Part shown: piece by piece, positions 19,880 through 26,900 of the stretch
Layout of the letters: each line of letters starts with the position of its first letter
Numbering within the stretch: position 1 is the stretch's first letter
DNA from: Dermatophagoides farinae
Lineage: Eukaryota > Arthropoda > Arachnida > Sarcoptiformes > Pyroglyphidae
Direction: 5' to 3'
Assembly: GCF_024713945.1 (NCBI RefSeq)
Contig: NC_134682.1
Span: 1,798,001-1,862,000, forward strand
DNA length: 64,000 nt
Position numbers and translations under genes: made by a program
The notes under the pieces: generated by a model
Told to the model about the DNA's origin: nothing
Databases searched by the model: none
What the model saw: the letters and a program-made list of their open reading frames with translations, nothing else

Positions 19880-21960
19880 CTTTTTTTTGTGTGTGTGAAT
19901 GAAAAAAAATGGATGATAATGGCAGAGAAGTGAAAAAAAAAAAATAAATAAAATCTCAAGAATCTCAAGGCCAAATCTTAACACTCATAGCTCATTGTTT
20001 ACGATGTGAAAAAAATGGTCAATAATAATTGTTTTGTCTTTTTTTTTCACAGATTTCAAATAATAATAAATTGTTTAATTTGGTTAATTGATTTTTTTGT
20101 TTTGTTTAATTTGAAAAAAAAATCACTGAATCTATGAATGCATAAAAAAATTCATCCATTCATTGATGATTGTGAATGAGAATAAAACAAAAATTCGAAT
20201 TCGAATGAGCTGTTTTTATATATGTAATAACAACAACACGAAAATATCCTTTGTTTTTTTTTCTGCATTGGCATGTTTGATAATGATAATTGTTGTTGTT
20301 GTTGTTGTTGTTATTGATTGAACACAATCATGATGATGACCAAAAAAAAAAAAAAAAAATGACGAAATTCAAAACGAATTTGATTGATTAACTATCGAAT
20401 CATACACACACATTGGTGAAAAGTGTCATTTTGGTTATAATTCACTTGTTTGGTGGTGGTGGTGGTGGTATTAGTGGGGGAAGTGTATAGGATTTTATTT
20501 TTTATATTGTTACACGAAACAAAGAATGATGATGACAACATCCTTTCATTTGTTTTTAACCAGAAGAAAAAATGACGAAAATAAAAATCAAACAGAAAAA
20601 AAATGCAAATTATGCAAATGTGTGTGTGTGGACATGTAATAAAAATGAAATAGAGGAAAATCATCATCATCATCATCTTTAAATGGCTATTTGCATTGTA
20701 TCTGTATGATGCTATTCAATGGTGAATTGATCATCAAAAAGAATTTGGTTGTATCTCTTATACCTTACATACGAAAAAAAAATTGATCATCAATATCGAT
20801 CGATTGATGAACAATTCATCCATTGATGATCTATCCATAAATATCGATTAGATCAATGTGCCAATAAATATCAATCCATATCACACACACACACACACAA
20901 AAAGATTATATTGTTTCATTATTATTCAATGTCAAGGAAAATAGAAGCTGATGATGAAAATTTTTCATTTTTTTTTTGTTTGTTTGTTTGTTTGTCTTAA
21001 TTTTTCATTTTCATTATCAATCAATCAATCGATATTGATTTGATGGTATTTTCTAATGGAAAATATTTTCTTTCCTTGTCTCTTGTTTTTTCTTTCAAAA
21101 TTTTTTTTTTTTTTTTTTTTTGATGATTAATCTTTTGACCTATTGATTAGAGCTAATTGATTAATTACAACCATTATAGAGACAAGAAGAAAAAAAAATC
21201 TTATGATCCATCATCATCGTCATCGTCATCATCGTCATCATAGTCATCATCATCAGATATAAACACGAGCATAGTGAATGGGTAGAGATAAAATGAAAAA
21301 AAACAGATTTTTTTGGTTATCTCGCCATTTATAAAATCACGATTTGAAATAGATAGATGATCTCTACCATCTCGTCATCTAAAAATGTCCTCAAAACTTT
21401 GAATAAATATTTGCACTCTGATCCATCAATCCAGCAATCTAGCAAACACGAATGAAATGAATATGTGTTAAAATTCATTTGAACACAACAAAATAAAAAA
21501 TATCCAAGTATTTGAGCAATAAAATTCAAAAATAGTGGTGGAAAGAATTTCCAAAAAAATTAAATTTTCACATCTAAACAAATTTTTTTTTTTTGATCAG
21601 CAAATAGAAAAAAAAACTGATTGCAACAACCAAAAAAAATTTTTTTTTTTTCGTTTTTGATAAGGAAATGAAGATTAAATATCCACATAATAATATACCA
21701 TATATATAAATATTCAAACAGCAATCTGATGATATGATAATTTCAATAATGGTGGAAATATCTCAAAATATTGCAAACAACAACAACAACAACAACAACG
21801 GCAATCTAGGAGTGAAAAAAAAAACAAATGAATGAATGAATTCACCAGATTACTTGATGGTAAAAAAAATTTTTTCGGTTTTTCCCTGTTTGGTTTTGTT
21901 TGATTGTCCAAAAAAAAGGTCATCACTTTCATCAGAATCGATTCAATTGAATTGATTTGG
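19880..21960. other. MCTP 5' flank or first intron, left part
   Basis: AT-rich with (GTT)n, (GTG)n, GAT-rich and poly-T tracts and (CA)8 near 20882; no supported gene. It is either the promoter region of the 19879 start or, if the exon at 23545-23926 joins MCTP, part of the first intron. The 66-104-codon frames here (20392-20676, 21329-21529, 21714-22028) are low-complexity and show no family motif. Confidence 0.4.
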
Positions 21961-21964
21961 TTAA

Positions 21965-22814
21965 CCCTAGAAAGGTAACCTACGTAAAATTTATGCTTTT
22001 TGCACTTCAAAATGTTCCAAAAAAACACTCACGATGCTAAGACAGCTGGAACCCCTTTCTATTCCTCAAGAATATATTTCTACACCTTTAGAAATAGAAA
22101 AGATCCAGTTTTCGCCTTTTATCTGTTATCTACAAGCTCAGGCGTAAAAGCTTGTACGTAAAATTTACGTATGGTTGCCTGAATCAGCATAGAAAAATCT
22201 TAGAAAATTTTGCTGAGAGCGATAGTTTCGGAAATTTTTCCCAAAAAACGTCATTTATGAATAAAAATAATTTTAATCTTTTTCTTTTTTTTATCTTTTC
22301 ACTTGTCAAAAACGTTTTTTCTCGCAATATTTTTTGAAATAAACGTCTTTTCTGTTCATTTGTTTATGTTTTTCACTTTATTCAAAATTAAAATGCTTGC
22401 AAAAAGCGTTTAACAACGACCGGATGTAAACGTTGTGGCACCGCCCCCGTGGCGAATATCAGATAAAAATTTGTCAATCATGTTTCGATACACAATCATC
22501 GATTGATTAATCATATTTACAGGATCATTTTTCATTTTTTCTTTACGCTGTGATAATTTCAAAATTGACAATAAAAAAAAATTCAAAATTTACACCATAT
22601 CTTTGATTTGATATTTTTGAACTTTCCATTTTTGAAAAATGATTTTTTTTTCTTTAATATAAAATAGAGGTGTGATTCAATGAATAAACGTTAAAATTTA
22701 ACATAAATAATCAGATGAATAATTTTTTTAGCGGAAATAAGTTATGCATATCAACTACGTAAAATTTACGTAGGTTACCTTTCCCGCAATATCGATAAGG
22801 TTACCTTTCTAGGG
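21965..22814. mobile_element. Non-autonomous piggyBac-like DNA transposon (850 bp)
   Basis: Both ends carry perfect 16-bp inverted repeats, CCCTAGAAAGGTAACC at 21965-21980 and its reverse complement at 22799-22814. Both are flanked by TTAA (21961-21964 and 22815-22818), the target duplication made by piggyBac transposases. The repeat begins CCCTAGAAAG, as in the founding piggyBac. A sub-terminal motif TACGTAAAATTTA follows directly at the left end (21981) and lies further in at the right end (22756-22772, as the palindrome TACGTAAAATTTACGTA, with a second AAAGGTAACC beside it). This matches the unequal spacing of the terminal and internal repeats in the founding element. A third copy of the palindrome is at 22155-22171. 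The longest internal frame is 61 codons, so no transposase is encoded. It lies between MCTP and its probable first exon. Confidence 0.9.
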
Positions 22815-22818
22815 TTAA

Positions 22819-23066
22819 ACATGTGATGTATTTTTTTTTTTTTTTTATTAACAATTTGTGTATGCAATGTATGGTATGTGATTTTCTGAATGTAGTAGAA
22901 TAAATTTATTTTACTGTCTGTCATTTTTCACTAGAATCATGAAAAAAACAAAAAAAATTTACTCTGCACGGTGACGCATATAATACAAACACGTTACATT
23001 ATTATTATTATTTACAAATCATCATCATCATCAATAATGAAAATTGATGGTCAAACAAATGACCGT

Positions 23067-23100
<34 letters not shown>

Positions 23101-23544
23101 TGGGTAAATATTACATTATTAAGAAGTAAAATGAGAAAAAAAAACCCCTCGAGTATAAGTTTTTTTTCATCATTCATCTTGAATCTGACATGCTGTATAC
23201 ATACATACAAATGTATGACGTTCATATGTAATATAATAACAAACACAACGCAATGAAAAAGGTTGGCAAACAAAACGAAACGAAACGAAACGAAAAAAAA
23301 AGATAAATTGAAAAGGAAATTGATAAATGGCCACTAAAATAAAAAAAAGGAAATTTAAATATTTCTAAAATTATCAATTTTCCTTTTGTTGACAATTTTT
23401 TTTTCTGTCTGTGTGCATGTGTGTGTTGCATCGATTGAAATGCACTGAATTTGTTTGGTTTTGTTGATGATGACAAAAATTCGGGATTGCCGTTTTTTTT
23501 TATTGGATTTTGATCAATAAAAAAAAAGAAAGAAATTCACTTAC
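22819..23544. other. Noncoding, between transposon and candidate MCTP exon
   Basis: AT-rich, with a (CA)n tract at about 23070-23098 and poly-A/T runs. Nothing gene-like. It contains the sequence after the strong donor at 23544, so it is probably intronic. Confidence 0.4.
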
Positions 23545-23926
23545 CGGAAATGGATACATTTTTTTTATTACCATTTATAATTGTAATACTTGATGATTGT
23601 CGATTATTATCATCATTATTATCATCATCATCATCATCAAAGTTGAGTTGATTATCGATACCATCATTGGTATTGGTGGTAGTGTTCATCACACGTTTAT
23701 TTTGTTGTTGTTGTTGTTGTTGTTGTTTATTTAATCTGGTTGTTCTTTCAATAATATCACCAACTATTGAAATACGACCAAAAGTTGTTGATGATAATCT
23801 TTGTTTTGATGTTGACGGTGTTGTTGTTGTTGTTGTGATTGGTTGTTTTGATTGATTTTTTGTTTTACGTTTACTATTGCTACTGCTACTGCTACCAACA
23901 CTTCTGATTAAACTTGATGAAAACAT
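23545..23926 (-). CDS. Candidate alternative first coding exon of MCTP
   Basis: From the ATG at 23926 the frame is open for 127 codons and meets a consensus donor (G then GTAAGTG at 23544). The peptide is Ser/Thr-rich and basic (SKRKTKNQSKQP), then FGRISIVGDIIERTTRLN, polyQ and an Asp/Asn run, ending VSISG. It ends in phase 1. The only well-formed phase-1 acceptor I found downstream is inside the MCTP large exon, TTCTTTCTTCATAG ending at 19663. Joining there gives [16 protein letters not shown] and a 1438-residue protein without the N-terminal hydrophobic stretches. The join is inferred from phase and site quality only. Otherwise this is an orphan exon of an unknown minus-strand transcript. 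Confidence 0.5.
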
Positions 23927-26900
23927 TTTCAATTTTGAATCATATGTTCTATATTAATGGATTTTGATTTTGTTGTTGTTGTTGTTGTTGTTGATGATGT
24001 TGATGATTTAATTCGGTATTTTAAATCAAAAAGAAAAAAAAATTGAAAAATACAAAATCCAATACACTATAGTAGTACATCATGGTATTATTTCTGCCAA
24101 CCTGTCAGCCATCACCACCACCACCACGACCACTATCGGTTGACAAATTTTTTGTTTTATTCTACCAAAAAAAAAAAAAAAAAAAAACAACGGAAATGTT
24201 AATTCATCATTTTCTTGAATGTTATCAAAATGTTGTGTGCATTTAAAGTGTTAATGATGATGATGATGATTTTTTTTTGGGTAAATAAAAATGAATGATC
24301 TCTATCTATGTAATAATAATGGAATTATTACACAGTCAATATCCATGTACATATATACAGATGTTTTGTTTGTTTAAACCGGGCGTATATATTATTATTA
24401 TTAATGTACAGAATGAAATTCTGTACATTAATAAACTGTGTGAGACAAAAAAAAAACAAAACATCCAGATGTTTCATTCTATTATGATGGTGGTTAATCC
24501 TTTTTTTCTATCTATCAAACATTCAGGTTTTTTTCCATTAGCCGAATTATCAATTCAAGGTAGTTGTTTTATCATCATCATTTTTTTTTTGGGTGAGAAA
24601 AAATATTTAAAAACTTTTTTTTTGTTTTGTTTGTCTACAATGTCTGAAACGAGTATTTTTTTGTGGGGGTGGACATATAAAAACAACATGTTCTGGAACA
24701 ATATCCAAATCATCGTCATCATCATCATTGCCGAAACGGAAATTTTCCACACTTGTCACCCATTTGGTTTTTTATATAATCTCATTATTATATATGGAAT
24801 AAAAATAAATGATCTAGTTGATGATGGTGATGATGTGATCCAGCAAGAATTTCGGTAATAAAACAAAAAAAAACAAACATAGTAAAAAAAAAATTTGTCA
24901 TGACTTGGCTTAAAAAACAACAATAAACAAATTATTCTTCATTATCGTTATTGTCGTCGTTATTTGTCATGTTATATGTTACAAAATACTTGAATTCTAG
25001 CTAGAATTGTAGCCTAGTTTTTTGTTTGTTATAATGTATTTTATCATCATAAGTTAAATAAATGAGAATTTCATTTAAATGAAATAACAATCTAAATGTG
25101 ATCTAAAATGAGAATTTGTTTGTGATCCAAAATAATAATCACCATTATTATGTTATTATTATGATGATGATGATGATGATGATCAAGGAAAGAAAAATGT
25201 GGAAAAAAAACCAGGTCATTCTGGTTTAATAAATATTTTACACATTTCTCCAGAATCTAATTTCAGTACAAGCTTGTTTGTTTGTTTGTTTGGTTGTTTA
25301 TTTGACAAATTTTGGTTCCTAGTGAATTAATTGAATTGAACAAATAAACCGCATATGCACCGTGTGTGTGTACAATATGATATGGACATTTTCATTGTAT
25401 GGCCCACAAAAAAAATGGCAGATATCAAATTTTTTTTTATATCAACCAGTCAGCCAACTAGCCAAAAAAAAAAACAACCAATATAACCAGGTAACGTGAA
25501 AAATATTAAAAGCGTACCGGTGCATTTACATATGTGTCTAAATCTAAATTTAGATTAAAATTTATTCTCCACAATGATCATAATGACATCCTTTGAAAGC
25601 AAAAAAAAAAACTTTGCACCAATGATTATGGTGAACAGAGAAAAAAAACAATTTTTTTTCCATCGTCATCCACATCATTTGTATTCACAACAGGATTGTC
25701 ATGAATTTTGTTGTTGTCGTTGTTGTTGTTGTTGGTTTTTTTCATTTTTTTTCCACACACACACACGAACAATTTATCTCTATGAATGTTTGTTTGTGTG
25801 TGTGTGTGTGTGTTTCGTTGCAAATGATAATCAAATAAATTGATTCTCCATTTTTCTTTCTGAAGGACATTACACACACACACACACACAATGGTTGAAA
25901 GTGGTCTATTTGGTTTTTTTTTTGGCATTTCATTTCATTATGATTGTCAACCAGTAGATATTTTTGGTTGTGCAATTTCAGTGCAAAAAATTTCTGTTTT
26001 TCAATGGAATCTATTCTCGTTTTTTGTCTGTGTGTGTGTGTGCGTGTGAAATTATTTAACCGGATTCGTTATTGTTTGGCAAAAAAAAAAAATTGGAAAA
26101 TGATTGACAGATTCTGGTGATGTTGGAAAAAACTTTTCAGATATAACTGACTATGATGCTATGATTATGGTTCTGGTGTTTATGATTTCACATGAATTTT
26201 TTTTCATGCAAAATTGGAATCTTTTTTGCATTTCAATTATTTTATTTTATTTTTTTTCTGTTTTCACATATCAAACAACATTTAGCATATATTGACATTG
26301 ACATTGATAAATTTCAATATTTACAAAATCATTCATGTGTTTGACAATTGAAATTGGCAATTCTTAATCATCATCATTGATTGATTGATTTATTTCTTAC
26401 AAATCTTTGAATAGTTGTAAAATTTTCTATTTTCTTCTCAATACAAACACACACACACACACATGCACTTACACATACATACACATTAATTATAAGTCGT
26501 AGGCTGTTGTTGTTGTTGTTTTTTTTGACATCTTAACTATCACTAAATAATAATAATGATTGCTTGTTGCAAGAAATTTCCATTGAAATTCTTGATTAGA
26601 AACAGTGATAAAAAAGCATTAATTATATAATTGCAATAATGACTCACCAGTGATAAAATAAATTATTATATGCGTTGTAAATCTGTTGATGATGATGATG
26701 GTTAAAACTGGTTGATTTTTTTTTTGGCAAATATATTGAATATATGAATCAAGAAACAAAGATGAAAACTTTGATGTGTGTGTGAAAGTTATGAATTTTC
26801 AAACTTTTTTTTTTGAAATTGATCGAAAATATCGAATTTTGTTTTTGATTAATGATTATTGAATCGATTTATTTGAATTGAATGACTGAAATTCTATCCA

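Follow-up and report, generated by a model that had tools for sequence, protein, structure and literature searches.

A probable young family of non-autonomous piggyBac-type elements with founding-type asymmetric ends in the dust mite Dermatophagoides farinae

Introduction

How did an element that carries the end layout of the founding piggyBac, and no transposase of its own, come to move in the genome of a dust mite? The question is raised by positions 21961-22818 of the window, a 64,000-nucleotide stretch of Dermatophagoides farinae DNA (contig NC_134682.1, positions 1,798,001 to 1,862,000), where a complete element has 850 bp between its two TTAA copies and measures 858 bp with both of them included. 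Piggybac-type non-autonomous families are a known kind of element; the exactness with which an arachnid element keeps the founding asymmetry is unusual. A literature search, with most subscription journals outside it, found no dust-mite piggyBac element or family among the titles and abstract openings listed, and the word piggyBac is absent from the available text of the D. farinae genome papers PMC11074847 (main text) and PMC5805368. The available sections of these papers report that dust mites control transposons by siRNAs without piRNAs (PMC5805368), and that DNA transposons account for only 55,004 bp in a repeat survey of the D. farinae assembly that corresponds to the one analysed here (PMC11074847, Table 2).

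The element is very probably one copy of a small, young, non-autonomous family of the piggyBac superfamily in D. farinae that is moved in trans. A piggyBac-type transposase, supplied in trans, would recognise an asymmetric pair of ends, comprising about 35 bp on the left (the terminal inverted repeat, or TIR, and the adjacent palindrome) and about 60 bp on the right (TIR, 15-bp insert, repeated TIR motif and palindrome), and would then cut the element at TTAA and paste it into a new TTAA. The palindrome would presumably be read by the C-terminal domain of the transposase. Several points detailed below stand against this explanation: no transposase with matching ends was seen in the assembly, the element is longer than MITEs usually are, the test of end conservation counts related copies as independent, and a clean empty paralogue was found for only one of 14 insertion sites.

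Structure of the element and its ends

TTAA target duplications at 21961-21964 and 22815-22818 enclose a left TIR, CCCTAGAAAGGTAACC, at 21965-21980 on the plus strand, and a right TIR at 22799-22814 that matches it in sequence, its minus strand also reading CCCTAGAAAGGTAACC. The two are perfect over 16 bp, up to the start of the left palindrome, and the 17th base is identical too, so that the 16-bp repeats and flanking TTAA claimed by a sequence-only reading of this DNA are confirmed at exact coordinates. The tip arms returned by a repeat search of the window are 24 nt long and 96% complementary. By the definition quoted in the available part of PMC2872659, piggyBac-superfamily TIRs measure 12-19 bp and carry a CC[C/T]T terminal motif, and CCCTAGAAAGGTAACC has this length and motif; TTAA is present on both sides of 14 copies of the element, and as a single copy at the empty site of one of them. 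These features, together with the lack of an internal transposase, uphold the assignment of the element as piggyBac-type and non-autonomous.

The asymmetry lies in the internal repeats. The left, CRD-type repeat, TACGTAAAATTTATGCT (21981-21997, plus strand), is a degenerate member of the palindrome family TACGTAAAATTTACGTA and lies 3 bp inward of the 13-bp TIR, the same distance as in piggyBac, whereas its right counterpart, the palindrome TACGTAAAATTTACGTA itself (22756-22772, minus strand; 19 bp, CTACGTAAAATTTACGTAG, with its flanks), sits 29 bp inside. Relative to the left end, the right end has gained a 15-bp insert and a repeated GAAAGGTAACC; the repeated TIR-internal motif (AGGTTACCTTTC = GAAAGGTAACCT; 22772-22783, minus strand) corresponds in position to the duplicated sequence in piggyBac RE63, a right end that the available sections of PMC7351741 describe as having a repeated TIR segment. 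All 16 aligned copies have a left spacer of 3 bp, and the 15 that keep a right end, which copy L029 has lost, have a right spacer of 29 bp. In the founding piggyBac the spacers are 3 bp on the left and 31 bp on the right and the insert is 17 bp, according to the available sections of PMC7351741 and PMC2533014. The likeness extends to the bases themselves, which agree at 23/28 positions with the published left end of piggyBac and at 19/27 with its published right end. The claim of asymmetric ends like those of the founding piggyBac, with the internal repeat placed unequally, stood up to comparison, and the insert and repeated TIR segment of the right end agree with it as well.

Within the window these ends are distinctive. 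When TTAA sites were scored on each strand against the published piggyBac left end (n=923 tests), the two element ends reached 23/28 and 19/28, and the runner-up 15. With 3 mismatches or fewer tolerated, the 17-mer TTAACCCTAGAAAGGTA has two matches in the window where 0.07 would be expected, and 0 of 100 shuffles reach two; the palindrome, allowing up to 2 mismatches, gives four strand-wise matches (two places) against 0.03 expected. The repeat search found three copies of the TACGTAAAATTTA-type repeat in the element. Single-strand DNA folding of the element gave a z of -4.5 (20 shuffles), as expected because the element has inverted ends, and an Rfam search of window positions 21000-24000 returned 0 matches.

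The mite element therefore shares with piggyBac (IFP2) of Trichoplusia ni, as the latter is described in the available sections of PMC7351741 and PMC2533014, the TTAA target, CCCTAGAAAG ends, a 3-bp left spacer, a long right spacer, a palindromic internal repeat and a repeated TIR motif at the right end. It differs in its lack of a transposase, in a right spacer of 29 rather than 31 bp and an insert of 15 rather than 17 bp, in having a further palindrome, placed 174 bp inward of the left one, and in its dust mite host. To judge from this layout, a transposase that reads the founding-piggyBac arrangement would be what moves the element. Exact scans for a degenerate moth/mite left end in collections of viral contigs and genome contigs found 0 matches.

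Copies in the genome

The copy search covered the element's own genome, as one D. farinae assembly (62.4 Mb, 22 contigs), where the element matches 49 pieces. This genome encodes Der f 2, an exon on C1 agreeing with PDB 1ahk at 119 of 121 aligned residues. Twelve of the pieces, the window's included, are full-length copies of 857-859 bp that are 97.8-100% identical to the window copy, and a further two kept their ends intact but lost internal sequence by deletion, which leaves them 787 and 762 bp long. Each of these 14 carries the complete 17-base end, TTAA included, on both sides, which is the count of TTAA-flanked copies that the sequence-only reading had proposed to make. A further copy, L032 (L032:1303-2494, C9:552302-553493), is about 5% diverged, has a mutated outer TTAA and contains a pair of unrelated insertions (176 and 178 bp), which by eye have the look of small solo LTRs. 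Fragments or diverged relatives make up the remaining matching pieces.

Among the 15 closest copies, with L032 left out, pairwise substitutions range from 0 to 3.3%. Of the 858 positions 59 vary among these copies (14 copies being compared at the right end), and none of the 106 end positions does; the hypergeometric P of 3e-4 for this invariance is nominal, as it ignores the relatedness of the copies and treats them as independent, and the test excludes L032, a 5%-diverged copy with differences at 1/39 and 4/67 positions of its ends.

Two features of the interior to which the sequence-only reading had drawn attention are present where it placed them. The third copy of the palindrome TACGTAAAATTTACGTA, at 22155-22171, lies near element position 195 in 14 of 16 aligned copies, at position 121 in L030, where 73 bp close to it are deleted, and is disrupted by deletion in L031. 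A need for this third palindrome is without support, since both L030 and L031 keep perfect ends and an intact TTAA. The GC-rich patch, at 22415-22455, has no transposase-like coding content and no sign of function, its conservation being not above that of the rest of the element (4/41 positions variable, versus 59/858 overall, in 15 copies). In L031 (L031:501-1262, C1:3858205-3858966) nine small deletions, 96 bp in total, all fall in the left 500 bp and touch both the third palindrome and the GC patch; its substitutions amount to about 1.3%, and both its ends are intact.

Origin of the interior

The statement that no transposase lies inside the element also held. In a protein comparison of 395 open reading frames (ORFs, at least 25 residues) from the element and six related stretches with this genome's two transposase lineages, no transposase-like ORF inside the element rose above background. 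The top match inside the window element has an E-value of 0.012 over 10 residues, and the top match overall, in L032, reaches 4e-4 over 35 residues with an ORF that lies mostly within L032's second insertion. The E-values of this comparison are not conservative and its database is tiny; the lowest values are 7e-4 for reversed ORFs and 0.001 for ORFs of host genes, and because these controls score comparably, the matches of the element and L032 are taken as background. With no coding capacity, many copies and a homogeneous length (12 of 16 aligned copies at 857-859 bp), the family resembles a MITE in all but size, MITEs being usually <500 bp (available sections of PMC2872659); at 858 bp it is therefore called a non-autonomous element and not a MITE in the strict sense.

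One reading of such an interior is that it consists of unrelated filler captured between two piggyBac ends, rather than what an autonomous piggyBac retained after internal deletion. This is a serious contender, if somewhat short of an even chance. It agrees with the finding that ORF pieces of the element resemble this genome's transposases no better than reversed ORFs do, and with the occurrence of the same left end joined to different interiors in L023, L040 and L042, which are other copies or relatives; on the other side, it would take an autonomous element to trace where the interior came from. These differing interiors, together with the diverged fragments L037, L038 and L041, indicate that the end type is older in the lineage than the recent burst. 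By these sequence comparisons the evidence speaks against a single very recent arrival of the end type, whose age it leaves undated.

Several stretches were considered as transposase leads and set aside. A central acidic ORF of 60 codons in L024 was rejected as a piggyBac transposase N-terminus, being mostly a host-gene piece and other filler: over 166 bp it corresponds to an acidic host gene on C8 (150/166 identical), with an 89% match also at C7:3516022-3516180. The filler itself, of about 240 bp, lies at L024:5570-5808 (C7, minus strand), with 166 bp of it 90% identical to the acidic host gene at C8:49765-49923, and reads as the capture of a gene fragment inside a non-autonomous piggyBac copy. 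Because the ORF is a captured host-gene piece, it argues neither for nor against a captured origin of the 858-bp interior. A 37-bp piece at C4:6107780-6107816 (L089), identical to element positions 393-429 and bounded at both edges by CATG as judged by eye, was rejected as a transposase start, its surroundings appearing by eye to be CD36-type gene-like; it is perhaps templated filler DNA. L033 was likewise rejected, as it breaks off into unrelated sequence.

Search for an autonomous partner

From the perfect ends, the sequence-only reading had predicted an autonomous relative, either present in this genome now or in existence until recently. A profile search of the genome with PF13843 (DDE_Tnp_1_7) found 14 pieces (loci L009-L022), including remnants of 45 to 60 model positions. 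One lineage has clear ends and a second, consisting of L011 and its relatives, is broken and has candidate ends that read CCCATT, both being CCCATT types; the remaining pieces are remnants with unreadable ends. Several of the other pieces match either the L009/L010 or the L011 lineage, and L014 and L021 match neither query. The motif TTAACCCTAGAAAG, allowing up to 2 mismatches, occurs at none of the 14 transposase-like loci within 1.5 kb on each side, and the expectation of a DDE_Tnp_1_7 gene bounded by the same TIR thus failed over these flanks.

Starting from the ends gave the same answer. The genome holds 56 end-like sites with up to 2 mismatches, which form 18 convergent pairs within 20 kb, and none of these pairs spans a whole transposase gene, because the longest is 1192 bp. 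A stretch of 2287 bp between left-type ends at C3:6492933-6495219, taken from the 3-mismatch sites listed, was rejected as an autonomous partner on finding no PF13843 match and no transposase-like ORF; its listed ORFs are at most 107 aa, several of them low-complexity repeats, and one 87-aa ORF looks zinc-finger-like by eye. The partner is therefore either absent from the assembly or bounded by ends too diverged to be found. Of the earlier expectation, then, the part that placed an autonomous relative with these ends in the same genome found no support in the assembly, and the part that allowed for one having existed recently is retained. Recent activity without a visible transposase is an unusual feature, and a puzzle, for a family with near-identical copies.

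Could a resident transposase with different ends have done the work? The candidate is L010 (L010:255-3156, C5:3035871-3038772), the only piggyBac transposase found whose frame stays open through the entire PF13843 domain and on through the C-terminal tail, with a 558-codon open frame as listed (listed start GTG, first ATG two codons on) and a DDE_Tnp_1_7 match of 317.8 bits. A second copy, L009 (C2:4362913 onward), is scrambled at its 3' side and differs from L010 by 4 mismatches and 34 gap columns over 2555 aligned bp, the few mismatches placing L010's movement in a similar time frame. L010 also shares TTAA, a CCC start and near-identical copies with the 858-bp element. Cross-mobilisation by L010 is nonetheless improbable. 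The TIRs of the two, CCCATTCACGACC in L010 and CCCTAGAAAGGTA in the 858-bp element, share only CCC after TTAA, barring chance matches; the TACGTAAAATTTACGTA palindrome is missing from the L010 locus, where different ones occur; and the L010 protein is nearer to piggyBat, with which it scores 248 bits, than to the T. ni protein, with which it scores 151.5 bits.

L010, which differs from the 858-bp element in its transposase frame, its TIR and its palindromes, does resemble it in having subterminal palindromes that are placed unequally: a perfect 16-bp palindrome lies 60 bp in from the left end, and imperfect relatives of it lie further in, at about 146 and 205 bp, from the right end, where a scan found no perfect palindromes. 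For the earlier description of the asymmetry as ancestral, this placement might offer at most a weak hint. The ends of the L010 element are TTAACCCATTCACGACC. Its 18-base end has 17 exact copies in the genome, and since only those at C5:3035871 and C5:3038755 are close and facing, most relatives of this end look one-ended.

If, as seems probable, the 858-bp family is instead moved in trans by a transposase of the founding-piggyBac type, that transposase would be absent from, lost from or polymorphic in the sequenced stock. A fuller history can be sketched tentatively, as possible and somewhat doubtful: a founding-type piggyBac may long have been present in the dust-mite lineage and left several non-autonomous subfamilies, one of which was amplified very recently, with the transposase itself absent from the sequenced stock and therefore either polymorphic among mites in nature or provided by an outside source.

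Recent mobility

Three pairs of copies are free of substitutions: L004/L005, identical strings over 858 bp; L007/L026, with 0/858 substitutions and one 1-bp indel; and L008/L029, with 0/740. No flank similarity was found within any of the three pairs, so these copies were made by transposition, and recently.

Empty sites were sought in the own genome for 14 copies, by joining 100 bp from each side with one TTAA. The copy L008 (L008:1501-2359, C9:1974614-1975472) has a clean empty paralogue at C3:2010764-2010964, 91% identical over all 204 query bases, with a single TTAA, an ungapped junction and a 3-bp gap some 25 bp off. The flanks of L008 keep an open frame across the junction that matches Choline_kinase (PF01633) at 33 bits (E 4e-8), and further downstream another open stretch matches it at 88 bits (E 8e-25); L008 therefore interrupts a choline/ethanolamine-kinase-like coding stretch, and the paralogue of this frame at C3:2010764 is uninterrupted. 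This paralogous empty site shows insertion, not excision. A flank match of L003 (C9:2014108-2014242) was not counted as a second empty site, its alignment being gapped at the junction, and for the other 12 insertion sites the matches listed for the own genome include no paralogue that spans the junction.

Near-identical pairs in unrelated flanks and the empty paralogue of L008 thus establish that the family jumped, and recently. The sequence-only reading, which had taken the element to be recently mobile and named the absence of other copies and of empty sites as grounds against itself, is sustained by 14 TTAA-flanked copies, three substitution-free pairs and one clean empty paralogue in the element's own genome. 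Spread by segmental duplication, or copies that are assembly artefacts, might have accounted for pairs without substitutions and for the position of L024 in a rearranged locus, but this is already contradicted by the unrelated flanks of those pairs, by 14 end-complete copies at TTAA with differing flanks and by the empty site of L008, and its likelihood is close to nil.

Related systems and implications

A close parallel for a transposase-free family of this kind is provided by the CMITE families of Acropora corals, which, in the available sections of PMC2872659, are likewise non-autonomous, TTAA-flanked and bounded by piggyBac-like TIRs, and whose mobility is evidenced by an allele pair with and without the insertion, comparable to the empty site described here. 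The corals differ in that piggyBac-like transposons have been isolated from them, one CMITE family seemingly being derived from one, whereas in the mite none with matching ends was found.

The mite family is a natural setting in which to test piggyBac's need for asymmetric ends, as an arachnid element here retains the left spacer of 3 bp, a long spacer on the right and the repeated motif, and the ends that are invariant among the closest copies (15 for the left end, 14 for the right) bear on the same question. If the longer history sketched above is true, the left-right asymmetry that piggyBac needs in cells would be conserved between moth and chelicerate elements. The element is also a sign that DNA transposons have been active recently in dust mites, its insertions could serve as strain markers, and the practical lead is a transposase, as yet unseen, that can work on piggyBac-like ends. 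A lone right end occurs elsewhere in the genome, as a 59-bp piece that is little beyond one right end with TTAA/TTGA-like flanking bases; two instances, L039:2650-2708 and L039:8814-8872 (C4:3722649 and C4:3728813), are inverted and about 6 kb apart, and a third lies at C2:5241653-5241711.
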